A stretch of 64,000 nt of DNA from Opitutus terrae PB90-1 (lineage in GTDB: Bacteria; Verrucomicrobiota; Verrucomicrobiia; Opitutales; Opitutaceae). The stretch is taken from the NCBI RefSeq assembly GCF_000019965.1, contig NC_010571.1, forward strand, positions 2,241,001 to 2,305,000, written 5' to 3'. A program made the position numbers and the translations under genes. The notes beneath the pieces are model-generated. The model made no database searches, had not been told where the DNA came from, and worked only from the letters and a program-made list of their open reading frames with translations. Position 1 is the first letter of the stretch. Each line of letters starts with the position of its first letter. Of this stretch, positions 4,123 through 39,717 are shown one piece after another.

Positions 4123-4925
4123 ACGAAGGCACCAGCGGATTTGCGCGCGCCATGCTGGCGACGATCGGACGCGAGTGGCTGAGCCACCGCGTCAATCGGT
4201 TTCTCCACTGGCATCTCGGGCTGCTCGCACTCGCCGGCGTGGCCGCCGTGCTCGTGGCGCCCGAAGGCGAGGCGCACGGCGTCGCGTGGTTTCTCCTCTA
4301 CGCCGTGCTGTATGTGATCTCGCTCTCGGCCTTGTTGCTCGGCCTCAGTTCGGCACAGGCGGAGAACGACGAGACCCCTTTTCTGCTCACGCAACCGACG
4401 GGCGTCGCGCCCTGGGTGGCGGGCAAGGCGGCGGGGCTCGCGCTGATCGTCGCGCCCTCGTCCGTGCTGCTGATCGTGCCCTGGTGGATCACGGGAGGCT
4501 GGACGCCGGGACTGGCGCCGCTGGTGGCGGCGACGGCGGGATTCTCGGTCGTGCTGGCGACAGCGGGGCTGGCAGTCGGGCTGTGGATACATGAGCCCGT
4601 GCGCGGACTCATCGCGGCGGTGGCGCTTTGGTTCGCGTGGCTGTTCGCAACGGATCTCGTGCTGATCCTGCTCGCGGGTTCGGGTTGGGTGCAGGCGAAT
4701 CCGTCGGTGTGGGTCGCGCCGCTAATGCTGAATCCCTTCGACGCACTGCGGGTGACCGTGCTGCTGACGATCGAGCGCGCGGCGTTCAATTCGCTGGGCT
4801 CGGGCGCGCTCGTGGCCTGGTGGACGGAGCACACGGGACTGTGGCTCGCCGTGTGTCTGACCGGCTGGGCCGCGCTGGCGTGGGTGGGCGCGCTGCTCGC
4901 CGCGAAACAACGGCGAAGAGGGTAA
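4119..4925 (+). CDS. nosY: NosY, ABC transporter permease of the NosDFY complex
   Basis: 268 residues with about six hydrophobic helices (roughly 33-50, 60-80, 105-128, 137-160, 170-195, 240-262). The conserved segment NPFDALRVT corresponds to the NPxDxxR motif of NosY/ABC-2 permeases. The ATG at 4119 overlaps the nosF stop (ATGA), which fixes the start, although the frame is open upstream. This is the last gene of the nos run here. No nosL or cytochrome gene follows, so those partners, if present, must lie upstream of the window or elsewhere. Confidence 0.93.
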   Translation: MNEGTSGFARAMLATIGREWLSHRVNRFLHWHLGLLALAGVAAVLVAPEGEAHGVAWFLLYAVLYVISLSALLLGLSSAQAENDETPFLLTQPTGVAPWVAGKAAGLALIVAPSSVLLIVPWWITGGWTPGLAPLVAATAGFSVVLATAGLAVGLWIHEPVRGLIAAVALWFAWLFATDLVLILLAGSGWVQANPSVWVAPLMLNPFDALRVTVLLTIERAAFNSLGSGALVAWWTEHTGLWLAVCLTGWAALAWVGALLAAKQRRRG

Positions 4926-5027
4926 GGACCGACGCGGCGGGTGGAGACCGACATCCCGGCGGGCTCCAAGTGCTCGACGCGGGATCCAGCCGGCCGAGGA
5001 CGCCGGGCGCAACCGCCAGGCGGCCGC

Positions 5028-6011
5028 TCAGGCATAGATTTTTGCCAACGCAGCCGTGGTCCGTCGCAGGTTTTCGCGCAGCTCCGCGGGCGCGAGCACC
5101 TGGGCCGCCGCGCCCCAACCGAGCACCCATTGCTCGACCTCACTCAGCGCACCCAACCGCAGCTGGACCTCGAGTGCGTCGCCGGGCAGCTCGCGCAGCT
5201 CCTGCGATTCGTGCCACTCGCGTTCGCGAATCCGATCAGCGACAGCGGCGGTGAAACGGATCACCACGCGATAGTCGCCGCCGCCGCCGAGCACACCCAG
5301 CGCGTTGGCGAAAAACTTCTCCGGCGAGAAGTCGGCGGGACGGGTGAATCCGGCCTTGGTGTTCGCAACGGTCGCGATGCGCGGCAGCGCGAAGGTCCGC
5401 AAGGCGCCGCGTTCGAGATCGAAGCCGACGAGATACCAGAGGTTCTCCCGGTTCGCCAAATGATAAGGCTGCACCCGCCGTGAGGACGCCCGGGCGTCGC
5501 CGGGCTTGCGGTAGTCGAAGGTGACCTCCTCCTGGCGAAGCACGGCGCCGCTGAGCGCGTTGAAGACGGCGAGATCGGTTTTGCCGAGGCCGATGTTCTT
5601 GAACGAAACCGTGCGCAACTCGTCCGCGGGGGAGAACGAAATCCGGTCGCGCAGTCCGCCCGCGAGCTTGCCGAACGCGATCTCCAGCTGCCGGTGAAAC
5701 GGCGTGCCGCGATACTGCTCGAGCGCGCGCTGCGCCACCAGCAGCGCGAGGAGCTCGCCCTCGGTGACGTTCACCGTCGGAAACGCATTCACCGGTTGCG
5801 TGTAGCGATACGCCTGGATCAGCGGATCGAATTCTATCGGCAGCTCGAGCCGGTCACGCATGAAGGCGATGTCACGGATCACCGTTTTGCGCGAGACCTC
5901 GAGCGCCTTCATCAGCTTCGTGCAGTTGACCAACGCGCCCCGACGCAGCTCGTCGTGGATCTTGAGCATCCGCTCGAGCGGCGGACGGGAAAGCTGGGCG
6001 CGGAAGTTCAT
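5028..6011 (-). CDS. WYL-domain transcriptional regulator with N-terminal helix-turn-helix
   Basis: 327 residues. The N-terminal DeoR/HTH_11-type helix-turn-helix (about 10-70) contains LMKALEVSRKTVIRDIAFMRDRL. The WYL ligand-sensing region (about 150-235) contains the signature ENLWYLVGFDLERG. A C-terminal WCX-like extension follows. Such proteins are local or global transcription regulators, often responding to nucleic-acid or small-molecule ligands; the target here is unknown. The Met at 6011 (MNFRAQLSRPPLER) is preferred to a GTG eight codons upstream because that extension lies in the flanking repeat. The gene is convergent with nosY across a 102-bp gap. Confidence 0.86.
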   Translation of the reverse strand: MNFRAQLSRPPLERMLKIHDELRRGALVNCTKLMKALEVSRKTVIRDIAFMRDRLELPIEFDPLIQAYRYTQPVNAFPTVNVTEGELLALLVAQRALEQYRGTPFHRQLEIAFGKLAGGLRDRISFSPADELRTVSFKNIGLGKTDLAVFNALSGAVLRQEEVTFDYRKPGDARASSRRVQPYHLANRENLWYLVGFDLERGALRTFALPRIATVANTKAGFTRPADFSPEKFFANALGVLGGGGDYRVVIRFTAAVADRIREREWHESQELRELPGDALEVQLRLGALSEVEQWVLGWGAAAQVLAPAELRENLRRTTAALAKIYA

Positions 6012-9232: not shown

Positions 9233-12200
9233 ATGCCCGCTGTTTACGACGTCGAGCCCCGTCATTCACATGCTCTGACCGGCATTTTCGAAGGCAGGCT
9301 GAACCTCTCCGGCCCGGTGCGTTATGCCACCGCGGTGCTGGCGGTGGCGGCTGGCTGGCTGGTGCGCGCGGGGTTGATGCAAGCGTGGGGCGACCGACTG
9401 CCTTATCTGACGCTCTACCCGGCGGTGATGATCGCGGCGATTCTGGGCGGGTTCGGACCAGGCGTACTGGCGACGGCCCTGTCGGTGCTCGTGGTCGCAA
9501 TTTCCTGGACGCGATCGGGCAACGTTTTCTACGGCGACCGGCTCGACTGGGTTGGCATGGCCGCGTTTGCGGGTTGCTGCCTGGGGATCGCGGGCCTTGC
9601 GGCGCTGCTGCACCGCTCGCGACGGCGGAGAGACGCGCAGCACCGGGCGCTGGAAACCGCGCACGCGCAGCTCGAGGAGCTGGAACGGCAGCACGCCCGC
9701 GCCGAGGCCCGGCTTCGGGAAAGCGAGGAGCGGTTCCGACTGACGGCTGCGAGCGACGGGATCACCCTTTACGAGCAGGATGCGAACCTGCGCTACGTCT
9801 GGCTCTACCCGCAGCACGCGGAGCATGGCGCCGCGCTCGGCCGAACCGATGGTGAACTGCTTCCGAACGCCGAGGGCGAACGGCTGATGCAACGCAAGCA
9901 GGAGGTGCTCACCCAAGGCACGTCGTGCCGCGTGGAGGTTCGCGCCCAGCTGCCCGCCGGCACGAAATACTACGACACCTTCATCGCGCCGCGCCGCGAC
10001 GCGAGCGGCCGCATCGTCGGCGTGGCCGGCACCGCGCTCGACGTCACCGACCGGCGCCAACGCGAACAGAGCCGGCAACTGCTCGCGGCGATCGTGGAGT
10101 CTTCCGAAGACGCGATCATCGCGCTCGACCTCGAGGGGACCATCACCAGTTGGAATCAGGGCTCCACGCGGCTCTTCGGCTACACCGCGGCCGAAACCAT
10201 CGGTCATTCGGTCACGATGCTGATCCCCCGGGAACGCTTTCACGAGGAACCGCAGATCCTCGAACGCATTCGGGCCGGAGAGCGGATTGAGCACTACGAA
10301 ACGCGACGGCGCCGGAAAGACGGGACCGAGCTGGAGATCTCGCTCTCGGTCTCGCCCCTGCGCGACGATCGCGGCGAGATCGTGGGTGCCTCCAAGATCG
10401 CGCGCGACGTCACGCTGCGCAACCGCACCGAACGCAACCGCCGGTTCATCGCGATGCTCAATGAGCGGCTCGCATCGTCGGATCAACCGGACGAGATCGT
10501 CCAAACCGCGAGCCGGCTGGTGGCCCAGTTCCTCGGTGCGCAGGACTGCTGTTTTTCCGAGTGGCATGACGAGACCGGTGCGGCGCTGGTGCATTACGAG
10601 TGGGGGGAGCCCGGCCGGCCGGCCGGCACGGGCGTTCACCGGCTGTGCGAGTTCGCCCCGGCGGAGTGGCGCCGTCAGTTTCCGCACGAATTCCGCATCG
10701 CCGACATCACGCGCGAAGCGCCCGACGCAGCGCTGGTCGGGAAGTGTCAGGCAGCGGGCGTGGGCTCGTTTGCCACCGCCGGTGTGACGCGGAAAGCACC
10801 GTGGATCGCCTCGATCATCGTGGCCAGCCAGCAGCCGCGGACGTGGCGCGACGACGAGATGCGGTTGTTGAAGGCAGTGGTCGCGCGCGTATGGCCGCTG
10901 GTCGAGCGGGCGCGCAGCGAGACCGCGCTGCGCACGAGCGAGGAGCAACTCCGGCTCATCACCGACCACGCCCCCGTGTCGCTGGCGCAGGTCGACCGCG
11001 AGCGCCGGCTGAAATTCGTCAATCAAACCTACGCGCGGCGCTTCGGCCGCGAGCCCCACGACCTGATCGGCCAGCCGCTGAAGGAAGTGGTGGGCGCGAC
11101 GGCCTACGCGCGGATCCAACCGCATCTAGACGGCGCCTTCGCGGGCCGGCACGTGGAATTCGAAACTGAAATCGCCCTGCCCGTCGGCGGGACGCGCTGG
11201 GTACATGCGGTGCACACGCCGGAAACCGCGCCCGACGGCACGGTGATCGGCGTGATCGTGCTGATCACCGACATCACCGCGCGCAAGGAGGCCGAGCGCC
11301 AGGTGGCGCTCGCGCGCGACCAGGCGCTCGCGGCGGCCCGGGCCAAGGATGATTTTCTCGCGGCGTTGTCGCACGAGCTCCGCACGCCCTTGAACCCGGT
11401 GCTGCTGATCGCCAGCGACGCGGCGGAAAACCCGGCGCTTGCCGCCGAGGTGCGACGCGATTTCGCGACGATCCGCAAAAACGTGGAGCTCGAGGCACGA
11501 TTGATCGACGACCTGCTCGATGTGACGCGCATCACGCACGGCAAGCTGCCGCTCGACCTGCGGCCGGTGAGTGCCGAACAGATTCTGCAGGACGCCTTGT
11601 CGGTCATCCGTCCCGACGCCGAGCAAAAGCGGATCACCCTGGTCACGGAGCTCACGGCGCACCGGACGACCGTGCGCGGCGACGCCGTCCGGCTGCAGCA
11701 GGTGTTTTGGAACGTGCTCAAGAATGCCGTGAAATTCACTCCCGCAGGCGGGCGCATCACCGTCACGTCCGCGAACCTCCGCGGCGGCGACACCCTGCGC
11801 GTGGCCGTGCGCGATAATGGCATCGGCATGACACCGGCGGAGATCGCCCGCGTGTTCGACGCGTTTACCCAAGGCGACCATGCTGTCGGCAGCAACTCGC
11901 ACCGGTTCGGCGGGCTGGGCTTGGGGTTGACGATTTCGCGGCTGCTGGTCGAACAACACCACGGCGACATTCGCGCGGAAAGTGCCGGCCCGGGGCAGGG
12001 GGCCACCTTCACCATCGAGCTGCCGGTCACGACGCAACCCATCGCCACGGTCGGCTCGACCACGGGTGACGACGGGCTGCGCGCGATCCACCTCGATGGC
12101 CGGGCGGGGCGGAGGCGCGGTCGCGTGTTGCTGGTGGAAGACCATGCGCCGACGCGTGACGCGCTCGCGAGTCTGCTCCGACGGCGGAACTACGAGGTGC

Positions 12201-12490
12201 TCACGGCGGCGACGATCGGCGAGGCGCGCGCGCATCTGGCAGCGGGCGGAATCGGCTTGCTCGTGTCGGACATTGGGCTGCCCGATGGCGACGGCTGCGA
12301 TCTGATGGCCGAACTCCGCGGCCGCGCCGAGTTGCGGGGAATCGCGCTCACGGGCTATGGCATGGATGCCGACATCGCACGCAGCACCAAGGCGGGCTTC
12401 TTCGCGCACCTGACGAAGCCGATTCGCGTGCAGGCCTTGGACGCCGTGCTCGCCGCGATCGATTCACCCGCGGCGGATTTCGCCCGCTAG
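9233..12490 (+). CDS. Membrane hybrid histidine kinase with three PAS, GAF and receiver domains
   Basis: 1085 residues. Order: a DUF4118/KdpD-like membrane region (about 25-120, with [19 protein letters not shown]), a coiled-coil linker (125-165), PAS domains at about 165-275 and 282-395, a GAF-like domain (405-555), a third PAS (565-690), HisKA with H714 in [12 protein letters not shown], HATPase (about 805-925, with RDNGIGM and [13 protein letters not shown]), and a C-terminal receiver (965-1080) with phospho-acceptor D1013 in [10 protein letters not shown]. It autophosphorylates and passes phosphate to its own receiver; the signal and output are unknown because no cognate regulator is adjacent. 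The stop TAG is the first CTAG of a structured repeat. Confidence 0.93.
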
Positions 12491-12622
12491 CCCGGATATT
12501 TCATGAAATATCCGCCCTCTGGGCCGACTCTGTCGGGGCTGGCCGCGACAAGGTCGCTTCGCCGCGGGCGGACGGAAATTTCAGACCGAGCTTCACTCCT
12601 GTTCATGAAATTTCCGGGTTAG
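12487..12622. repeat. CTAG-bounded structured intergenic repeat, copy 1
   Basis: 136 bp. The ends are imperfect inverted repeats (CTAGCCCGGATATTTCATGA and the complement of TCATGAAATTTCCGGGTTAG). Inside are consecutive short hairpins: CCGAC-TCT-GTCGG, GCGAC-AAG-GTCGC and a CGCC-GCG-GGCG stem. The left CTAG holds the stop codon of the hybrid kinase. It sits between convergent genes. Copies 2 (18618-18762) and 3 (39313-39457) share the same plan. Confidence 0.88.
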
Positions 12623-12628
12623 CCGGGC

Positions 12629-13465
12629 TCAGCGGCCCGAACTGCGGCGGCGCAACGCCTCGCGACCCTGATCGAGCTTGATCCGCTCCTGCGCGGTCAG
12701 GCTGTCGAGTCCGGACCGGGCGATCTTGTCGAGCAGCGCATCGAGCTCGGCCATGGCAGGGTCGGACGAACTGCGGGGATTGCTGCCGCGGCGATCGCCC
12801 CCGGGCAGCACGCGCAATTTCGGCCGGCGCGTGGGCCAGCGTAGCTTCGGCAGCGAGAACCGCCCCTGCTCATGACGAACGAACGCGTAGGAGAACCCCA
12901 CGGTCGCCCAGAGCGCGAGGAGCGAGTTCACGTCATTCCGGCTGAATCCGATCAGCGTGTAGATGCCGACGAGCACGAACGCGATGTGCTTGGCCTGGAG
13001 GTTGAAAAACACCGGCACGCTCGGATGGAGCGTGGCGAACGCGAGGAACAACCCGAACGCGCCCGATTCGCCCGAGAGCGACACGGGCCGCCACAGGCCG
13101 ATCGCGGTGAACAGCAGCGGCAGGAACAGGTAGAGGCCGACGTAAAACTCGAGAAACACCTTTCGGCCGAAGAACCGCTCCACCTCGCGGCCGAACCAGA
13201 TGATCATCGCCATCTCGATCACGAACCAGAGGCTCGGCGGATTGTAGAAACCGTAGCTGAAGATCCGCCAAGCCTCGCCGGCGAGCACGCGTTCGCTGCT
13301 GAACGGCAAGAGACCGAGTACGCCGTAGGCGCCGGACCACATCAAAATGGCCGTGATCAGCATCGCGCCCGCCCAGATGAGCACGAGCACGTGCGCCGCA
13401 TAGATCGCGTGACCGCGCCACCACGTGAGCGGCTGGTGTTCCTGGGAGTAGCCGTATTCGTCCAT
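12629..13465 (-). CDS. Rhomboid-like membrane protein, probably not a classical active protease
   Basis: 278 residues from ATG at 13465 (MDEYGYSQEHQP). It has six or so membrane helices with a rhomboid layout: a WFGREVERFFG element after the second helix, then GESGAFG matching the catalytic GxSG of rhomboids. The expected catalytic His in the sixth helix (usually an AHxxG pattern) is not evident: the region reads NSLLALWATVGFSYAF. The C-terminus (DALLDKIARSGLDSLTAQER) matches the short DUF6576-type tail found on many bacterial rhomboid-family proteins. It may be a pseudoprotease or membrane chaperone. It is convergent with the kinase gene across repeat copy 1. Confidence 0.8.
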   Translation of the reverse strand: MDEYGYSQEHQPLTWWRGHAIYAAHVLVLIWAGAMLITAILMWSGAYGVLGLLPFSSERVLAGEAWRIFSYGFYNPPSLWFVIEMAMIIWFGREVERFFGRKVFLEFYVGLYLFLPLLFTAIGLWRPVSLSGESGAFGLFLAFATLHPSVPVFFNLQAKHIAFVLVGIYTLIGFSRNDVNSLLALWATVGFSYAFVRHEQGRFSLPKLRWPTRRPKLRVLPGGDRRGSNPRSSSDPAMAELDALLDKIARSGLDSLTAQERIKLDQGREALRRRSSGR

Positions 13466-13801
13466 GGCTGCTGGTCGGACAGCGTGAGCGCAGGGTTGCT
13501 CCGCGGCAAGTGTCGTGAGCTGCACGCTTCAAAGCAGGGCGCGCCTCCTCTGGCACGGCGTCTCGCCCGTGAGTTGGTTTGGAAACTGAGCTGCGCTTCT
13601 CGGGAATCCGGCCGGCTGGCCCCGGCTCTATTGAGGATTCCGGGAAGAAGTGACGGCGGCCCGGTCGGGCGGGGATTCCGCTCCGCGCCGCGAACACCTC
13701 GCCGCGAAACGGATGAACCGTTGCGGGCGGGATCGGTCTATGGCCCGATACGGACCCGGGCAAATCCCGGTGTGCGCCGCTCCTCAACCCCAACATTCAT
13801 C
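13466..13801. other. Intergenic region between divergent rhomboid-like and lipoprotein genes
   Basis: 336 bp with no supported gene. It must hold the promoters of both divergent genes, but no clear -35/-10 pair stands out. A 15-bp sequence GGCGTCTCGCCCGTG (13557-13571) recurs exactly at 14310-14324, on the other side of the lipoprotein gene. Confidence 0.5.
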
Positions 13802-14293
13802 ATGACCCTCCAGACATTCTTCCCCCGGATTGCCGCTGCGACATTCGTCGCGAGCGCGCTACTGTTCTTAGCCAGTGCGTGTTCAAAACAGGATCGCGAC
13901 ACCGCAGGCGCGAAAGCCCGGGACGCGTATGACCGCGCGAGCGAGGCGACGAAGGACGCCTACGCCGACACCAAAGCCGCGATGGGCAAGGCTTGGGACG
14001 AGATGAAGGCCTACACGTTCGAGCAACGGGAGCGGTTCGCCGCGAGCGCCAAGGCGATGGAATCGAATATGGAAGTGCAGGCCAGCCGGCTGCGGGCCGA
14101 GCAGGCCGAAGCGGAGGCGAGTGCCAGCCGACAGGCCGCGATGGCTGAACTGAAAAACGCGCAGGCCGACTACAAGCAGAAGGTCGCGGCACTCGGCGAT
14201 GCCACCGCCGCCACCTGGGAGAGCGCGAAACAAAACGTGATCGTCGCGTGGAACCGCATGGAGGCGGCCTACCACAACGCGCGCGCGAAATAG
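13802..14293 (+). CDS. Small helical outer-envelope lipoprotein
   Basis: 163 residues. The N-terminal export signal ends in a clear lipobox (LFLASAC), so the protein should be lipid-anchored through that Cys. The mature part is almost entirely charged, Ala-rich helix with predicted coiled-coil character (AKARDAYDRASEATKDAY, RAEQAEAEASASRQAAM). This resembles Lpp-like or stress-related helical envelope proteins, but I cannot assign a family. The frame is open far upstream, but only the ATG at 13802 gives a proper signal peptide. It is flanked by two copies of a 15-bp sequence. Confidence 0.75.
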   Translation: MTLQTFFPRIAAATFVASALLFLASACSKQDRDTAGAKARDAYDRASEATKDAYADTKAAMGKAWDEMKAYTFEQRERFAASAKAMESNMEVQASRLRAEQAEAEASASRQAAMAELKNAQADYKQKVAALGDATAATWESAKQNVIVAWNRMEAAYHNARAK

Positions 14294-14402
14294 CACGCAG
14301 GGTGGCGCCGGCGTCTCGCCCGTGGGCCGTGGCATTCGCTTAGCGGCTCGACGAACTCGGCACTCAAATCGCGACCGGGCTGGCGAAACGCAGCACGCAG
14401 TC

Positions 14403-14421
14403 CACGGGCAAGATGCCCGTG
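14403..14421 (-). repeat. Hairpin 3' of the first ADOP permease gene
   Basis: Perfect 8-bp stem CACGGGCA / TGCCCGTG with a 3-nt loop, 22 bp beyond the stop of the minus-strand permease gene. No T-run follows on the gene strand, so it is likely a repetitive extragenic palindrome or 3' stabiliser, not an intrinsic terminator. A related hairpin with a GGGCA/TGCCC stem is at 43868-43894. Confidence 0.55.
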
Positions 14422-14443
14422 CCACACCTGCGGCCCGGACACT

Positions 14444-16873
14444 TTACTGCGCGCGGAGCGCCACCATCGGGTCGACTTTCGTCGCGCGCCGGGCCGGCAG
14501 CACGCAGGCGAGAAGCGCGATGGCTGCGAGCACGAGCGGCGCCAATGAGAGTGCGAGCGGGTCCGCCGGACTGACGCCGAATAGCAGCTGTCCGACCACG
14601 CGGCTGAGCGCGAGATAGCCAGCAAGGCCGGCGGCCACCCCAACTGCCACCAGTACCGTGCCCTGCCGCAGCACGAGCCACGCGATGCCGCGCGGCGTGG
14701 CGCCGAGGGCGAGCCGAATGCCAAACTCCGTGGTGCGCTGCACCACGGCGAAGGCCAGCACGCCATAAACGCCGAGCGCAGCAAGCAGGAGGGCCACCCC
14801 GCTGAACAGTGACAGCAGTGCCATCGGTGCGCGCCTCGCCAGCAGTGCCTCGTCCACCCGCGAGGTGAGTGTCTTCACGTCATAGAGCGGCTGGGCCGGG
14901 TCCACGGTCGCCATTGCGGCGCGGATCGGTGCGACCAGCGACTCGGCCGCCACCGTGGTTTTCACGACGACCGTCGCATATTCGTCGGGCAGCTGGGCGA
15001 ACGGATAATAGAGCGTTTCCTTCGAGACGGGATTTTCCAGCGACTGGTTTTTCGCCGCCGCGACGACGCCAATCACCGTGCAACGCACGGGTTCCGGCCC
15101 GCCGCCGCGAATGATCACGCGATCGATCGGATCCTCGCCCGGCCAGTAGCGGTCGGCCATGACGCGATCGACGATGACGACCGGATTCGCTCGCGCGTCA
15201 TCCTGCGCCGTGAACGTTCGCCCGCGGAGCAGCGGGATTTGCAGCGCGGCGAAGTAGTCGGGCGTCACGCTGATCCGGAATCCGTGCGGCTTCGGCTGGC
15301 CGGCGGGCGGCGTGTAGCCGTCGATGTCGTAGGAGCTCTGCGAAAAACTGCCGCCGAACGGCAGGCTGCTGGTGATCGCGGCGCGCGTCACCCCGGGCAG
15401 CGGGCGCACCTGCTCCAGCAGCCGCTCGCAAGCAGCGGTGCGGTGCGAGGGATCCTCGTAAGCGGGGCCGGCGAGAGTGAGCTTCGCGCTGAGCACGTTT
15501 TCCGCGACGAACCCGGGATTCTGCGCTTCGAGCCGCTGCACGCTCTTGATCAGCAGGCTGGCGGTGGCGAGCAGCATGACGGCGAGGGCGATTTCGCCCA
15601 CGACGAGGGTGGCGCGAAGTCGCTGCGTGCGACGGCCGCCACTCGCGCGCTCGCCGCTTTCCTTCAAGGCGCCGGCGGCTTCACCGCGTGAGGCGGACCA
15701 CGCCGGCATCGCGCCAAACGCCAGCCCAGTGGCCAGCGCGCACGCCAGGGTGAACCCGAAGATCGTGAGGTCGAGTTGCACGCCGTAAGCGCGCGGCAGG
15801 AGCGTCAGCCCAAATGCGCTGAGCCCGCGGATGCCGCCCAGCGCCACGAGCAATCCCAGGGCACCGCCGACAAGGAAAAGCACGAGGCTTTCGGACAACA
15901 ATAGCCGCACCAGCCGGCTGCGGGCGGCGCCGAGCGCGGCCCGGATCGCGAGCTCCCGTTCCCTCGCCAGTGCACGCGCGAGCAGCAGGCTCGCGACGTT
16001 CGCGCAGCCGATCAGCAGCGCGGCGGCGACCCCGGCCTGTACCAGCCACAACATGCTGCGAACGTCCCGCACATTGCGCGCGAGAAAGCCGGTCACGCGG
16101 CCGCCGAATCCACTGGTTTCCCAGAACTGCCGGGAGTCCGGCAGCCGCTCCGCGTTGCGCCGCTGGAGGGCATCGAGCTCGCGCTGAATGGCGGCGAGGT
16201 CCGTGTCCGGCCGAAGTCGCGCAATCATCGTCGAGAACTCGTGACCGCGCTCCTGATCCGAGCGCTGTTCCGGGGTGAACGCGAACGGCACCCAGAGCTG
16301 GATCCGCGGCGCCGGAAAGTAAAAGTCGCGCGGCATCACGCCCACGACGGTGTAAGGTTCGCCGTTCAACCGCAGGGTGTGCCCGACGATGCCGGGGTCG
16401 CCGGCAAACCGCGTTTGCCAGCACGCGTGGCTGAGCACGACGACCCGGTCGCGCCCCGGTTGCGCTTCCTCATCCGTGAACACACGGCCCAAGGCGGCGC
16501 CGCTCTGCAACGTGGAGAACAGCGACGGACTCGCGCGCACGGCCGACACCCGCTCGGCTGTGCCGGAATCCGCCAGATTGAAGCTCGCGTAGTGGTAAAT
16601 CGCGCTGTCGGCGAAGCCGCGCACGGCTTCGTGCCGGTCGAGGTAGTCCGGGATCGAAACGCCCGCGTCCGGCAGCCCCATCAGCGGGTAGGTATTGTAG
16701 ACGTAGACGAGCCGGTCGGAATCGCGCCACGGATAGGGCTTCAGCAGCACCGCGTGGACGACGGAGAAGATCGCGCTGTTGGCCCCGATGCAGAGCGCGA
16801 GCGTCAGGAGGGTGATGGCAGTGAAGCCAGGGGCTTTGGCGAGCTGGCGCAGCGCGTGACGGAAATCATTCAT
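14444..16873 (-). CDS. ADOP-type FtsX/MacB permease (a)
   Basis: 809 residues from MNDFRHALRQLAKAPGF. This is the acidobacterial duplicated orphan permease layout: an N-terminal helix (TAITLLTLALCIGANSAIFS), a MacB-type periplasmic core, three FtsX helices, a second periplasmic core and three further helices ending in the family tail PARRATKVDPMVALRAQ. FtsX/MacB proteins normally need a separate ABC ATPase; none is adjacent, hence orphan. The substrate is unknown; export or mechanotransmission across the envelope is the general role. The frame continues 116 codons upstream into non-conserved sequence, so the Met at 16873 is chosen. A hairpin follows the stop. Confidence 0.9.
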   Translation of the reverse strand: MNDFRHALRQLAKAPGFTAITLLTLALCIGANSAIFSVVHAVLLKPYPWRDSDRLVYVYNTYPLMGLPDAGVSIPDYLDRHEAVRGFADSAIYHYASFNLADSGTAERVSAVRASPSLFSTLQSGAALGRVFTDEEAQPGRDRVVVLSHACWQTRFAGDPGIVGHTLRLNGEPYTVVGVMPRDFYFPAPRIQLWVPFAFTPEQRSDQERGHEFSTMIARLRPDTDLAAIQRELDALQRRNAERLPDSRQFWETSGFGGRVTGFLARNVRDVRSMLWLVQAGVAAALLIGCANVASLLLARALARERELAIRAALGAARSRLVRLLLSESLVLFLVGGALGLLVALGGIRGLSAFGLTLLPRAYGVQLDLTIFGFTLACALATGLAFGAMPAWSASRGEAAGALKESGERASGGRRTQRLRATLVVGEIALAVMLLATASLLIKSVQRLEAQNPGFVAENVLSAKLTLAGPAYEDPSHRTAACERLLEQVRPLPGVTRAAITSSLPFGGSFSQSSYDIDGYTPPAGQPKPHGFRISVTPDYFAALQIPLLRGRTFTAQDDARANPVVIVDRVMADRYWPGEDPIDRVIIRGGGPEPVRCTVIGVVAAAKNQSLENPVSKETLYYPFAQLPDEYATVVVKTTVAAESLVAPIRAAMATVDPAQPLYDVKTLTSRVDEALLARRAPMALLSLFSGVALLLAALGVYGVLAFAVVQRTTEFGIRLALGATPRGIAWLVLRQGTVLVAVGVAAGLAGYLALSRVVGQLLFGVSPADPLALSLAPLVLAAIALLACVLPARRATKVDPMVALRAQ

Positions 16874-17230
16874 GGCAGGAAATCCCGGCCGACGGCGCCG
16901 GCGGGAGGAGGGTGCGACGCTACAAACCCGGCGGCAGCCGAATAGTTTCAAGCTCCTTCCGTCATCGCGGCTCACTGGCCGCCACCATGGAAACAAGCAA
17001 CTCGGCGTCCTGCTGAGGGCGTGATCGGGGGAAAACGCCGGGCGAAAGGTTGAACTCGGTCGGCGCGGGGCGCAGAGCGGAGACGCGGGATTCCGCCGAC
17101 CGGTTCGTGTGAGTTGATGATCAGCGGAAGGCCGCGATCTCAACGCCGAGGCGAACGCGTGTCCCACGGGCGGCGACCTATCGTACCGGGACCCGAGCAC
17201 CTCGGGATCGAATAACCGCAAGGTCCAACC
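16874..17230. other. Intergenic region between divergent permease and PEP-CTERM genes
   Basis: 357 bp with no supported gene. It holds the promoter regions of two divergent genes. The only clear structure is a perfect hairpin CCCGAG-CAC-CTCGGG at 17192-17206, about 25 bp before the PEP-CTERM gene start, which could be an operator or a leader structure. Confidence 0.5.
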
Positions 17231-18442
17231 ATGAAAACAAGAAGCTTGATGGGTTTGATCGTGGTGATGCTCTCAGTGACGACGCCCGGGGCAGAGGCTG
17301 TCACCATTTCGTCGGAGGAGGGGCTGCAGTTCTCCCAACTCGACCTGACGTTTACCGGGGCAGCGCAGTCGAACTCGAGCTATGGTCTGGCGGCGGTGGA
17401 TATCGCCGCTCTCACCACGGCCACGGGCCTCAGCTCCGGCTATCTCAACATCAGCAGCGCTTCGGGCTGGGTGGTGCGAAACATGCCGGTGGAAAGCAAC
17501 AGTGGGCTCACGGGCCTCTCCACGATGTTTGATCTGGGCAACGCCCCGGGCACGCGCGTCGCAAACCTCGAGTTGCACGCGGACCTTTCGGCGACACCGC
17601 TCGCCAGCTTCAGCGGTGGATCGAATACCACGTTCGCGCTCACTTCCCTGACTTACAATGCGCAGGGCATCGGCGCTCCACGGGCCACGGCGCCGGGGTA
17701 TCGCGTCGATACGAGTGACGTGGCTCCGGCTCCCGGAGGCCAGACGATCAGCCGTTGGCAGAGCGGACATCCCTCCGTCGATCAGGATACGAATCAGTGT
17801 GCGCCGGCCTCGGTGGCCAACAGTCTCCAGTGGCTGGAGGACACGCAGGGGCTCCCCGTGCCATACGACAACGTGCCCGGAATCCGGGACAATTCGCTGG
17901 TGGGAAAACTCGACCAAGCGATGAATCGCCCGGCACACAATCCCGTCGCGTCAGCCGATGCGATGTTCGCTGGGAAGAAGGGCTTCCTCGATGATCCCGC
18001 CAACGAATTGGTCGGCAAATTGATCATCAAGCGTTGGGACGGCACGCTCGACTGGATCATCAACGAGGTCGATGACGACGAGAACGTCGAGCTCGTGATC
18101 TATTGGGACGCCGGCGGAGGGCACGCGGTGGACCTGGTCGGCGCAGGCAAGGTGGGCGGCATACCTTGGGTGGCGTGGACCCACGATGCCTTTCAAAGCG
18201 ACACACCCAACGGTGTGGGGACGCATTGGTTCGACGGCGGCGTTGGCTGGTCTCCCGTGATCGATGGAGAAATTGTGGCCTTCATCGGCGGCGAATTTTT
18301 GCGCGGGAGAATCGGTGATGCCATGTCGGAGTCGATGCGGCCGGTGCCGGAGCCGGCGACTTGGGCGGGCGGAGTGCTTGGCTGCGTGGTCTGCGGGTGG
18401 AGCGTATGGTCTCGCGTCCGCCAGCGTCGCGGCCGGCGCTGA
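17231..18442 (+). CDS. PEP-CTERM-sorted papain-like (C39-type) cysteine peptidase candidate
   Basis: 403 residues. A Sec signal (1-23) is followed by a beta-rich N-terminal half, then a papain-like fold. C190 lies in NQCAPASVANSLQWL, H298 in GGGHAVDLVGAG and D319 in WTHDAF, in the order and spacing of C39-like catalytic residues. The C-terminus is a textbook PEP-CTERM sorting tag: VPEPATWAGG, a hydrophobic helix and an Arg-rich end (RVRQRRGRR). Such tags are processed by exosortase, which is not encoded in this window. Proteolysis is inferred from the motif only. A CAAGG sequence before the ATG may be the ribosome binding site. Confidence 0.85.
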   Translation: MKTRSLMGLIVVMLSVTTPGAEAVTISSEEGLQFSQLDLTFTGAAQSNSSYGLAAVDIAALTTATGLSSGYLNISSASGWVVRNMPVESNSGLTGLSTMFDLGNAPGTRVANLELHADLSATPLASFSGGSNTTFALTSLTYNAQGIGAPRATAPGYRVDTSDVAPAPGGQTISRWQSGHPSVDQDTNQCAPASVANSLQWLEDTQGLPVPYDNVPGIRDNSLVGKLDQAMNRPAHNPVASADAMFAGKKGFLDDPANELVGKLIIKRWDGTLDWIINEVDDDENVELVIYWDAGGGHAVDLVGAGKVGGIPWVAWTHDAFQSDTPNGVGTHWFDGGVGWSPVIDGEIVAFIGGEFLRGRIGDAMSESMRPVPEPATWAGGVLGCVVCGWSVWSRVRQRRGRR

Positions 18443-18617
18443 ACCGTAGGCGATTCTCAGGTACGGACCGCTCGCCGGGCAATGAAGGCTCGTGACGCGT
18501 GATAAGCGCCGCTCGCGTGCAGGCAACGCGAGCGGCTGGGGAGCGCCGAGTCCTGCCTCGATGCTCGTTGACCTTGCCGGCCCGGCCCGCGGTCGGACCT
18601 TGCCTTTTTCAACGCTG

Positions 18618-18762
18618 CTAGCCCGGACATTTCACGAAATTCGTGAAGTATCCGCCCTCGGGGCCGACTCTGTCGGGGCTAGCCGCGACAAGGTCACTCC
18701 GCCGCAGGCGGACGGAAATTTCGGGCGGAGCTTCACTCCGGTTCATGAAATTTCCGGACTAG
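18618..18762. repeat. CTAG-bounded structured intergenic repeat, copy 2
   Basis: 145 bp. It begins CTAGCCCGGACATTTCACGA and ends TCATGAAATTTCCGGACTAG. Near the left end is an extra hairpin TTCACGAA-A-TTCGTGAA. The inner hairpins CCGAC-TCT-GTCGG (18664-18676) and CCGCC-GCA-GGCGG are perfect; the middle one (GCGAC-AAG-GTCAC) has one mismatch relative to copies 1 and 3. The right CTAG supplies the stop codon of the minus-strand metallo-beta-lactamase-fold gene. It sits between convergent genes. Confidence 0.88.
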
Positions 18763-19556
18763 ATCGTCGGATTCAGCTGAGCGTCGAGGTAGTAGGCGCT
18801 CATCACTTCCTTGGGCAGCTGGCCGACGTACTTTTTGATCGTCTCGACCTGTCCGCTCGTGTGCACCGGCACGACGAACTTGGCGCCGGAGAGCTCAGCC
18901 ATCTTCACCGCATCCGGGAGGTTGCCGCCGCAACCGGAGAGCAGCGGGAAGATCACGTCCGCCTTCGTCGCGGCCATTTCAGGAACCGGGCCGGTGTCGC
19001 CGGTTACGTAATAGCGCGCGCCGTTCAGCGCGAGGACGTAGCCGACCCAGCCGCCCGCCTGCGGATGTTTCGCCTGCGGATTTTCAAAGTAGGCCGGCAC
19101 CGTGCTGACCTCGACGCCCGCGAGCTGGTAGGTCTGGTTCGTCGCGACGGTCTGCATGGTAATGCCTTTCTCCGCGGCGAGCTTCACCACCTCGGCCGGC
19201 CCGGCGAGGATCACCTGCGGGTTGGCCTGGAGATATTCCTGCAGCACCGCGGGCTGGAAATGATCACCGTGCGGATGGGTGATCAGAATCAGATCGGGCT
19301 TCACCAGACCGGCTTTGACCGCGAGTGGATCCGTGGGGCCGGCGGTCGGATCGACGAAGACCATGCCGCCACCCTTGCGCGCGAAACGAACGTCGTTGTC
19401 GCGGAGGTGGACGACGCCTTTGAGCACCTTGCACTTCGCTTTCGCGTCGGCCATCGGGCAATTCATCTTCCCGGGTTTTTCACCGGCCGAGGCGGAAATC
19501 AGAGAGGCCGCAAGTGCGGCGGCGACGAGCAGCGAACAGGTCAGGTTTCTTTTCAT
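18759..19556 (-). CDS. Secreted metallo-beta-lactamase-fold hydrolase
   Basis: 265 residues with a Sec signal (1-24, cut after SASAGE). The fold motif ITHPHGDHF gives the HxHxDH zinc site, and TGDTGPVPE carries the metal-bridging Asp. Overall it resembles the UlaG/UPF0173 branch of the superfamily, which includes phosphodiesterases and lactonases. The substrate is not predictable. The region MNCPMADAKAKCK after the signal is Cys/Met-rich and could bind metal. Its stop codon TAG lies in the terminal CTAG of repeat copy 2. It is divergent from the GH51 gene across 276 bp. Confidence 0.86.
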   Translation of the reverse strand: MKRNLTCSLLVAAALAASLISASAGEKPGKMNCPMADAKAKCKVLKGVVHLRDNDVRFARKGGGMVFVDPTAGPTDPLAVKAGLVKPDLILITHPHGDHFQPAVLQEYLQANPQVILAGPAEVVKLAAEKGITMQTVATNQTYQLAGVEVSTVPAYFENPQAKHPQAGGWVGYVLALNGARYYVTGDTGPVPEMAATKADVIFPLLSGCGGNLPDAVKMAELSGAKFVVPVHTSGQVETIKKYVGQLPKEVMSAYYLDAQLNPTI

Positions 19557-39231: not shown

Positions 39232-39266
39232 GTTGAGAGTTGAGGGTTGAGAGTTGAGAGTTGAGA
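39232..39266. repeat. Tandem heptanucleotide repeat (5 copies) upstream of permease (d)
   Basis: GTTGAGA repeated five times on the plus strand, with the second copy GTTGAGG. It begins 7 bp before the GTG start of the minus-strand permease gene, so it lies in the leader or promoter. Copy-number change by slippage would alter spacing by 7 bp. Confidence 0.75.
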
Positions 39267-39312
39267 GCGGGAAGCGACGCGGCCTTCGGCGGACGTGGGA
39301 GGTGGCGGCGTA

Positions 39313-39457
39313 CTAGCCCGGATATTTCACGAGATTCGTGAAATATCCGCCCGCCGGGTCGACTTTGTCGGGGCTAGCCGCGACAAGGTCGCTCCGCCGC
39401 AGGCGGACGGAAGTTTCGAGCATATGAATACTCTCGTTCATGAAATTTCCGGACTAG
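39313..39457. repeat. CTAG-bounded structured intergenic repeat, copy 3
   Basis: 145 bp, same plan as copies 1 and 2. It begins CTAGCCCGGATATTTCACGA and ends TCATGAAATTTCCGGACTAG. Inner hairpins: CGAC-TTT-GTCG, GCGAC-AAG-GTCGC and CCGCC-GCA-GGCGG. The right CTAG supplies the stop codon of the minus-strand DUF4177 lipoprotein gene. The left end is 88 bp upstream of permease (d). Confidence 0.88.
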
Positions 39458-39717
39458 CGTTGGCGGAGTACGACGATCCTGCTCTTGTCGTCGCCGAGCA
39501 CGCTGACGACTTCCCAGCCTTGCGCGGAGGCCTTGGCAATTTCCCAGCGCAAGGCGAGGGGGCTCATCTGGCCGGTGATGATCCGCACGTCGCCGAAACG
39601 CGCGCGATCCACTGTGGTGCACCCTTGGAGGAGAGTGCCGATCAGCAGAACTGCGGCCGCCGCAGTGGTCCGACAGAGTCGGACCGGCGGAGGGATTGGC
39701 TGCAGGTGAGCGCTCAT
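39454..39717 (-). CDS. Small DUF4177-like lipoprotein
   Basis: 87 residues. After a basic N-region, the hydrophobic helix AAAAVLLIGTLLQGC ends in a lipobox, so the protein should be lipid-modified. The C-terminal 35 residues (LRWEIAKASAQGWEVVSVL, then an RIVVLRQR end) match the DUF4177 pattern of a short beta-strand protein with a conserved GWE. Function unknown. The TAG stop is part of the terminal CTAG of repeat copy 3, so repeat insertion or loss would alter the C-terminus. Confidence 0.72.
   Translation of the reverse strand: MSAHLQPIPPPVRLCRTTAAAAVLLIGTLLQGCTTVDRARFGDVRIITGQMSPLALRWEIAKASAQGWEVVSVLGDDKSRIVVLRQR

Follow-up and report, generated by a model that had tools for sequence, protein, structure and literature searches.

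Elements of the IS1380 family such as ISPa33, distant relatives of piggyBac, have CCCG termini flanked by 4-bp CTAG or CTAA duplications in most of the plasmid copies examined below; a published table lists ISPa33 with 16/16 and 4 and ISPsp9 with 21/18 and 5, which we take to be inverted and direct repeats, respectively (PMC4133298). The piggyBac elements themselves have CCC-type ends and a 4-bp duplication, in their case TTAA and only rarely TTAG or CTAA, and IS1380 has served as the outgroup for piggyBac (PMC10813416). Short, non-coding, foldable elements that duplicate their target and carry the terminal repeats of an autonomous element are known from other families, including MITEPye1 with IS1182, the TIMEs with Tn3, and the Correia elements (PMC11578231, PMC4133298). 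For Opitutus terrae, Di Nocera et al. (2013, PMC3733652) describe numerous GTAG REPs and BIMEs, which are palindromic, extragenic units of 20–40 bp, often paired, whose TAG often furnishes the stop codon of the flanking ORF.

The repeat considered here resembles each of these systems in part. Comparison of its sequences leads us to the reading, to which we assign a probability of roughly 85%, that it is a MITE with short terminal repeats CCCGGATATTTCAYGA that would be moved in trans by an IS1380-family transposase, with a fold that would serve its spread. It has the features of a MITE that were examined, ends of the IS1380 type, and an unusually well-preserved array of hairpins. Its terminus is also found on two partial IS1380 elements of the Opitutaceae, but it is only ~130 bp long, has no transposase gene, and has a hairpin body absent from the IS stretches that were examined. 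It differs from the other IS- or transposon-derived MITEs in its six ordered, covarying hairpins, in termini whose pairing with each other does not covary, and in its IS1380-type ends. Unlike the GTAG REPs, with which it was compared by their description (PMC3733652), its flanking tetramer is duplicated target DNA, and unlike piggyBac it is not eukaryotic, any kinship with that family running only through IS1380.

The stretch of DNA that was analysed (the window, 64,000 nucleotides) is positions 2241001–2305000 of the single 5,957,605-bp contig of the O. terrae PB90-1 genome. The three copies that a sequence-only reading had reported at 12487–12622, 18618–18762 and 39313–39457 are present exactly there, copies 2 and 3 being 145 bp each and copy 1 being 136 bp, because 9 bp are absent from its first hairpin. 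That reading had seen imperfect terminal inverted repeats starting from CTAG; the repeats are real, while the CTAG itself is the target duplication beside a shorter terminal repeat. Its three ordered mini-hairpins with triplet loops recur in all three copies with variants, namely CCGAC-TCT-GTCGG (TCGAC-TTT-GTCGG in copy 3), GCGAC-AAG-GTCGC (GCGAC-AAG-GTCAC, with one mismatch, in copy 2) and CCGCC-GCA-GGCGG (CGCC-GCG-GGCG in copy 1). The copies also contain three hairpins that this reading missed: each end has a long one, and a short one consists of CCC/GGG. The features are as follows; where a hairpin has two fractions of pairs with changes on both sides, the first is from an 18-sequence alignment and the second from 24 copies in other genomes.

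12487–12622, + strand: copy 1 of the candidate MITE, with duplications CTAG (12487–12490) and TTAG (12619–12622) and a 9-bp-deleted hairpin 1
18618–18762, + strand: copy 2 of the candidate MITE, target duplications CTAG/CTAG included
39313–39457, + strand: copy 3 of the candidate MITE, target duplications CTAG/CTAG included
18622–18637, + strand: left terminal repeat of copy 2, CCCGGACATTTCACGA; the family form is CCCGGATATTTCAYGA
18743–18758, - strand: right terminal repeat of copy 2, TCCGGAAATTTCATGA on the - strand
18624–18654, + strand: hairpin 1, long and terminal, left terminal repeat in one arm; both-side changes in 6/13 and 11/13 pairs
18655–18663, + strand: hairpin 2, short CCC/GGG; both-side changes in 0/3 and 1/3 pairs
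18664–18676, + strand: hairpin 3, CCGAC-TCT-GTCGG; invariant in a 24-row alignment; can pair with hairpin 4
18679–18682, + strand: central CTAG, the cut point of half-length copies
18685–18697, + strand: hairpin 4, GCGAC-AAG-GTCAC (usually GCGAC-AAG-GTCGC); both-side changes in 0/5 pairs in both alignments
18698–18712, + strand: hairpin 5, TCCGCC-GCA-GGCGGA; both-side changes in 2/6 and 6/6 pairs
18713–18756, + strand: hairpin 6, long and terminal, right terminal repeat in one arm; both-side changes in 4/10 and 7/10 pairs
12488–12490, + strand: TAG stop of the gene for a 1085-aa hybrid histidine kinase (9233–12490), in the left duplication of copy 1
18759–18761, - strand: TAG stop of a 265-aa metallo-beta-lactamase-fold gene (18759–19556, - strand), in the right duplication of copy 2
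39454–39456, - strand: TAG stop of an 87-aa lipoprotein-like ORF (39454–39717, - strand; lipobox read by eye, weak coding score of 10), in the right duplication of copy 3

The body thus has a long, a short and a CGAC/GTCG hairpin to the left of the central CTAG and the same three kinds in reverse order to its right, approximating an inverted dimer of one three-hairpin module. When the three copies are folded as RNA on both strands, z ranges from -5.00 to -6.95, with 0 of 200 shuffles as good for each of the six folds.

A genome-wide BLAST search returned 40 scored places for the repeat, and a covariance model returned 92 rows that come, by our own count, to at least 50 distinct places (many are matched on both strands), a lower bound with 150 of 5526 candidates scored. 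Given these 40 and 50 places, the repeat is not a chance occurrence, and with covariation present as well, the possibility that only three copies exist and that none covary does not hold. Nor did the searches made turn up any catalogue entry for it. Forty-two of the places hold complete copies with both ends and eight hold truncated ones; the complete copies span 132–155 bp with their duplications (n = 42), typically 128 or 137 bp without them. The family is therefore short (<300 bp), numerous and free of a transposase gene. Thirty-six copies diverge from their consensus by a median of 5.5% (range 2.2–13.1%), which implies an older family. The flanks of separate copies are unrelated, homology ending at the tetramer. 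Shortly upstream of copy 3, at 39232–39270 of the window, lie short direct repeats of a GTTGAGA-like unit.

Across the family, a second covariance model finds matches in at least 13 of 120 genomes, counting the present one, and in at least 8 of 49 genera, both lower bounds under strict filters with at most 26 candidates scored per genome, and including four doubtful matches (L083, L085–L087). Full-length copies occur in seven genera (g1, g15, g16, g30, g57, g59 and g65) when loci found later are included, and matches are also seen in named metagenome-assembled genomes.

Some copies depart from the standard layout. In a sub-form (L052–L056 and L034), CTGAATTGCC takes the place of the central CTAG (CTAAATTGCC in L052) and hairpin 4 reads GCCCCGAC-AA-GTCGGGGC. 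Right-half-only copies, four in this genome (L057–L060) and L097 elsewhere, begin exactly with the central CTAG or CTAA, and left halves alone are seen at L098, L099, L209 and probably L084. Deletion between CTAGCC (or GGGCTAG) repeats can explain such halves, though they may also be independently mobile.

The tetramers that bound the element are not part of it; they are 4-bp target duplications. Copy 1 has CTAG on the left and TTAG on the right, and copies 2 and 3 have CTAG at both ends. Across the genomes insertions lie in YTAR tetramers, mostly CTAG, but CTAA stands on both sides of L025, L031 and L101, TTAG on both sides of L038, L073, L075, L077, L091 and L093, and CTCAG on either side of L071. 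The two tetramers of a copy are the same in 39 of the 60 complete copies, where shuffling within groups would give 27.3 (P = 1e-5), and T at the first position is found on both sides in 10 copies, on the left only in 2, on the right only in 2 and on neither in 46 (Fisher P = 5e-8). These statistics cover 42 of the 50 places in this genome and 18 of 27 matches in other genomes, the 9 truncated or doubtful matches (L083–L087, L097–L100) being left aside; tetramers were entered by hand, L071 as TCAG, and both L096 copies, which represent one duplicated segment, were kept as 2 of the 18 other-genome rows. The 21 of 60 complete copies with discordant tetramers are taken as cases of later mutation. 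Since L002 has a near-consensus interior and yet a TTAG tetramer, the tetramer follows the site rather than the interior.

The L096 locus (genome G114) has copies at 4877–5026 and 5811–5960, 934 bp apart, with identical 16-bp flanks on both sides, so that a segment containing the element was probably duplicated; the ORFs between the two copies include a helix-turn-helix-like one, as judged by eye.

An empty site bears out the duplication. In genome G092 the locus L077 reads TTAG-element-TTAG, and the orthologous sites in G140 and G134 have a single TTAG and no element. A third species of the same genus, G059, has TCAG at its orthologous empty site; the last 10–25 bp of the left flank of L077 are poorly conserved across the empty-site genomes, more so in G059. 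The TTAG of this site contains the TAA stop of a 167-aa minus-strand ORF (1648–2151 of L077; QueD-like by eye). Together, the tetramer statistics and the empty site establish target-site duplication, as expected of a MITE, and a 4-bp duplication with an empty site in turn points to a transposase of the DDE type, such as that of IS1380.

Each of the three window copies has a neighbouring gene whose stop codon falls within one of the duplications. Coding scores were taken from a simple codon model, with 23 long window ORFs as its training set. By these scores, 26 of 84 element flanks carry a confidently called gene that points towards the element, 53 are unclear and 5 have a gene pointing away. 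Every one of the 26 genes that point at an element ends in the tetramer, and none runs into the element; 25 of the 42 complete copies in this genome have a confident coding gene ending exactly at the tetramer. The background for such a figure is itself high, as a gene ends at CTAG in 15 of 50 background sites, with two flanks run through. CTAG is also scarce in the window, at 16 occurrences against 57 expected from shuffles, and at several of the sites that are left a long ORF ends. Because CTAG is rare and often a stop codon, target choice and the loss of harmful insertions are sufficient here. Because the duplicated CTAG is self-complementary, a gene on either side of the element regains its stop; insertion in the CTAG of a TAG stop leaves the gene intact, and hence such insertions survive.

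The connection to IS1380 comes from the termini. The terminus YTAG-CCCGRANATTTCAY is common to the six-hairpin element, to other MITEs with unrelated interiors and to two partial IS1380 elements, and of 200 genomes of the family 36 contain the pattern TAGCCCGRANNTTTCAY, with 0 occurrences of the reversed-pattern control in each. Reading part of the TAGCCCGRANNTTTCAY places gave interior-unrelated elements of 167–168 bp in G113, 234–246 bp in G208, 129–130 bp in G135, 152 bp in G187, 171 bp in G073 and 292 bp in G016. Fifteen further paired elements, 12 with unrelated interiors and 3 of the six-hairpin type, were collected with patterns that favour YTAR-like tetramers, which by itself does not force the two sides to be equal; by eye, 13 of the 15 have identical tetramers, including CTAA/CTAA, TTAG/TTAG and ATAG/ATAG, the discordant ones being the second elements of L194 and L195. 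A shared terminus with changing interiors is the expected product of a transposase acting in trans.

Further Opitutaceae MITE families of 129–292 bp, with the terminus YTAGCCCGRANATTTCAY and unrelated interiors, were noted at L188, L190, L191 and L205 (G113), L187 and L192 (G208), L194 (G135), L193 (G187) and L201 (G016).

In two genera the terminus leads into IS1380 coding sequence. At L214 (G135) a 53-codon ORF, cut by the contig end, begins 63 bp after the tetramer does. By tblastn this ORF has matches in 171 plasmid records; among the 15 matches listed, 8 are annotated as IS1380 family transposase and 1 as a hypothetical protein, and 6 lack any annotated feature. The only NCBIfam match of this fragment is the IS1380 model, weakly (E 0.18). 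At L166, in a different genus (G201), a second IS1380 N-terminus, with 64% identity over 39 aa, comes after this terminus; its tblastn E values against four plasmid IS1380 proteins are 5e-6 to 5e-4. These partial elements reach contig ends after 222 bp (L214) and 233 bp (L166), and the Opitutaceae yielded no IS1380 element that is complete at its two ends, so that the terminal repeat shared with an IS is that of one end of partial elements in two genera. Five plasmid copies of IS1380 were checked for their ends: CCCGCATTTCTCACAG, a 16/16 repeat, with CTAG in two records that have the same protein, a 13/16 repeat with CTAA, and in L231 an 11/16 repeat with CTAG that is weak enough for chance, while in the fifth copy, L229, a repeat plus duplication was not detected. 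CC-type ends with CTAG or CTAA duplications are thus seen in 4 of 5, one of them weak, and the CCCG-type terminal repeat with a 4–5 bp duplication relates the element to IS1380. Such a transposase, of the DDE type and related to piggyBac, would bind the CCCG repeats in trans and might move the element by a piggyBac-like cut-and-paste route.

In this genome, no IS1380 transposase was found in the ~1.03 of 5.96 Mb sampled (overlaps counted), and all places within one mismatch of CCCGGATATTTCAYGA are element copies except L062, which has no adjoining YTAR tetramer. The IS terminus was found neither in viral contigs (exact pattern) nor in plasmid DNA. Three candidates for a complete IS were set aside: a 3.06-kb convergent pair in G208, which is actually two short MITEs; a 1.7-kb pair in G165, among whose ORFs no transposase was seen by eye; and a 3.1-kb candidate in G009 whose ORFs were read by eye as host genes. 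As for the literature, the accessible text of papers in which IS1380 and MITE co-occur (PMC4133298, PMC11578231) contains no description of an IS1380-derived MITE that we found; searches returned nothing on miniature inverted-repeat elements in Opitutaceae and nothing joining the IS1380 family, target site duplication and CTAG, and work on transposable elements or RAYT of Opitutus terrae, in the parts seen, has nothing on this repeat.

The fold covaries between genera. In an alignment of 18 sequences (11 from this genome, 7 from other genera), made without structure and with the structure then drawn by hand, 12 of 42 pairs have changes on both sides, and the covariation score is 0.171 against 0.079 in shuffles (0/500) and 0.030–0.062 when the structure is slid; further pair types show no excess (25 against 23.0 in shuffles, 64/500). 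For 24 copies from other genomes, in an alignment fitted to the model's structure and hence favouring it, both-side changes rise to 25 of 42 pairs with a score of 0.303 against 0.126 (0/500); these are matches under E 3e-18, without L082, L093 and L102. When the left terminus is paired with the right one, the score is 0.060 against 0.066, which is no covariation, so that each end keeps its own hairpin and not a match to the other end. Hairpins 3 and 4, which can pair with each other, vary too little for a covariation test.

Within this genome the picture is different. With RNAalifold, which gives a different consensus structure, only 2 of 33 pairs have both-side changes. In 36 copies (an alignment that omits four of the first 40, L034 and L036 for deviant centres and L037 and L040 as truncated), private letters are as frequent in stems (53/2963) as at unpaired positions (29/1843; P = 0.65), and 50 pair cells have one private change against a single cell with two, which does not pair. 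Cells of G-U and C-A stand at 25:27 in these copies (P = 0.89) versus 32:16 in other genomes (P = 0.03, from related rows in a structure-fitted alignment). Resident copies decay as if neutral, and the fold seems to be kept in the mobile lineage and not site by site. Since resident copies look unconstrained, the covariation must have come about in the line of copies that did move, and we infer from such compensatory change that the fold serves the element's own spread, perhaps in end synapsis or in making its transcripts inert, rather than a host function. Resident decay argues for a benefit to the element, or else for palindrome correction during replication. A more specific proposal, that a single-stranded hairpin array is selected because the spread of this IS1380/piggyBac-type MITE needs it, is one we offer tentatively; within it, the suggestion that terminal hairpins are presented to the transposase, or that insertion at stop codons is made harmless on either strand, is likewise speculative.

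Short palindromes are corrected by template switching, in which one arm is copied onto the other, and the perfect hairpins could then be a by-product of replication, with no selection. The gathering of both-side changes in hairpins 1, 5 and 6 is what such a process might leave, but six hairpins persist in fixed order across genera, no correction is visible in resident copies, and left–right terminus pairing goes uncorrected, so that we regard this origin as unlikely. Retention of the array for an RNA function at the 3' end of host transcripts, as a stabiliser, insulator or terminator, seems to us distinctly improbable. It would fit the many genes that end exactly at the tetramer, the strong folding z-scores, the covariation between genera and the excess of G-U over C-A cells there; against it stand the equal rates of private change in stems and unpaired positions, the even G-U and C-A counts in this genome, and the frequency with which CTAG is a stop anyway. 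The earlier suggestion of a structured 3' RNA is accordingly right about gene ends and a covarying fold, but neutral stem decay, along with zero Rfam gathering-score matches in the window, gives no indication of an RNA role site by site. Its companion, a bidirectional terminator, found no support in a pattern scan for a GC-rich hairpin followed by a T run (12000–19500), which gave no match inside copies 1 or 2.

The IS5 group and IS701 also make 4-bp duplications, and a MITE moved by another DDE family of this sort, with YTAR duplications, has to be considered. IS5-group elements show 4 in what is presumably the direct-repeat column of the table in PMC4133298. However, PF01609 is missing in 4 of 11 element-match genomes, and the termini that stand beside coding sequence lead into IS1380 in two genera, which makes this source very unlikely; DDE_Tnp_1 (PF01609) and DDE_5 (PF13546), tried as mobilisers, have no match in this genome. 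Most improbable of all in our judgement is a REPIN, that is, a REP/BIME-like element moved by a RAYT (Y1) transposase with CTAG replacing GTAG. Hairpins beside a TAG-containing tetramer, the inverted-dimer layout and half copies cut at the central tetramer all recall such elements, as do the stop-donating GTAG REPs so numerous in O. terrae (PMC3733652), and Y1 matches are present, four in this genome and some in 11 of 11 element-match genomes searched (element-bearing ones only). The target duplication and empty site largely refute it, the tetramer varies with the site and not with the interior, and the half copies can come from deletion; larger target duplications are not produced by the known IS200/IS605 elements (PMC2817692). 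Guide–target pairing by the central CTAG, to which a few copies with a varying centre had pointed, was not clearly supported, centre and left tetramer agreeing in 26 of 37 copies of this genome against 23.1 expected (P = 0.051; P = 0.12 for all copies) and centre and right at P = 0.19. Around the four Y1 genes of this genome and 27 loci in ten other element-match genomes, three of which have a truncated or doubtful match, the flanks, up to 1.5 kb long and at several loci shortened by contig ends, contain no credible copy; the only match, at L042 (E 2.1), is noise. Neither RAYT association nor a constant GTAG tag without duplication is seen, and of the proposal that a REP/BIME-like element is mobilised in trans, the mobilisation in trans survives and the RAYT does not. 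One RAYT-like gene of this genome (L041, G000:C1:576594-576926, - strand) has an upstream GGGGTCAG motif that resembles the GGGGWSAS terminal repeats of ‘TIRYT’ genes described in PMC3733652.

A MITE with IS1380-type ends would account for an unannotated repeat family in the Opitutus genome and its relatives, and would tie that family to a transposase family, IS1380, for which we found no MITEs described. The covariation of its fold across genera would be a property of the lineage that moves rather than of the copies in place, a caution that covariation in a repeat need not prove an RNA function for the host. As a DNA transposon with structured ends, the family lends itself to experimental test. 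If the hairpin array is indeed selected, then together with a self-complementary, duplicated target it would make this a mobile element adapted to the ends of genes.
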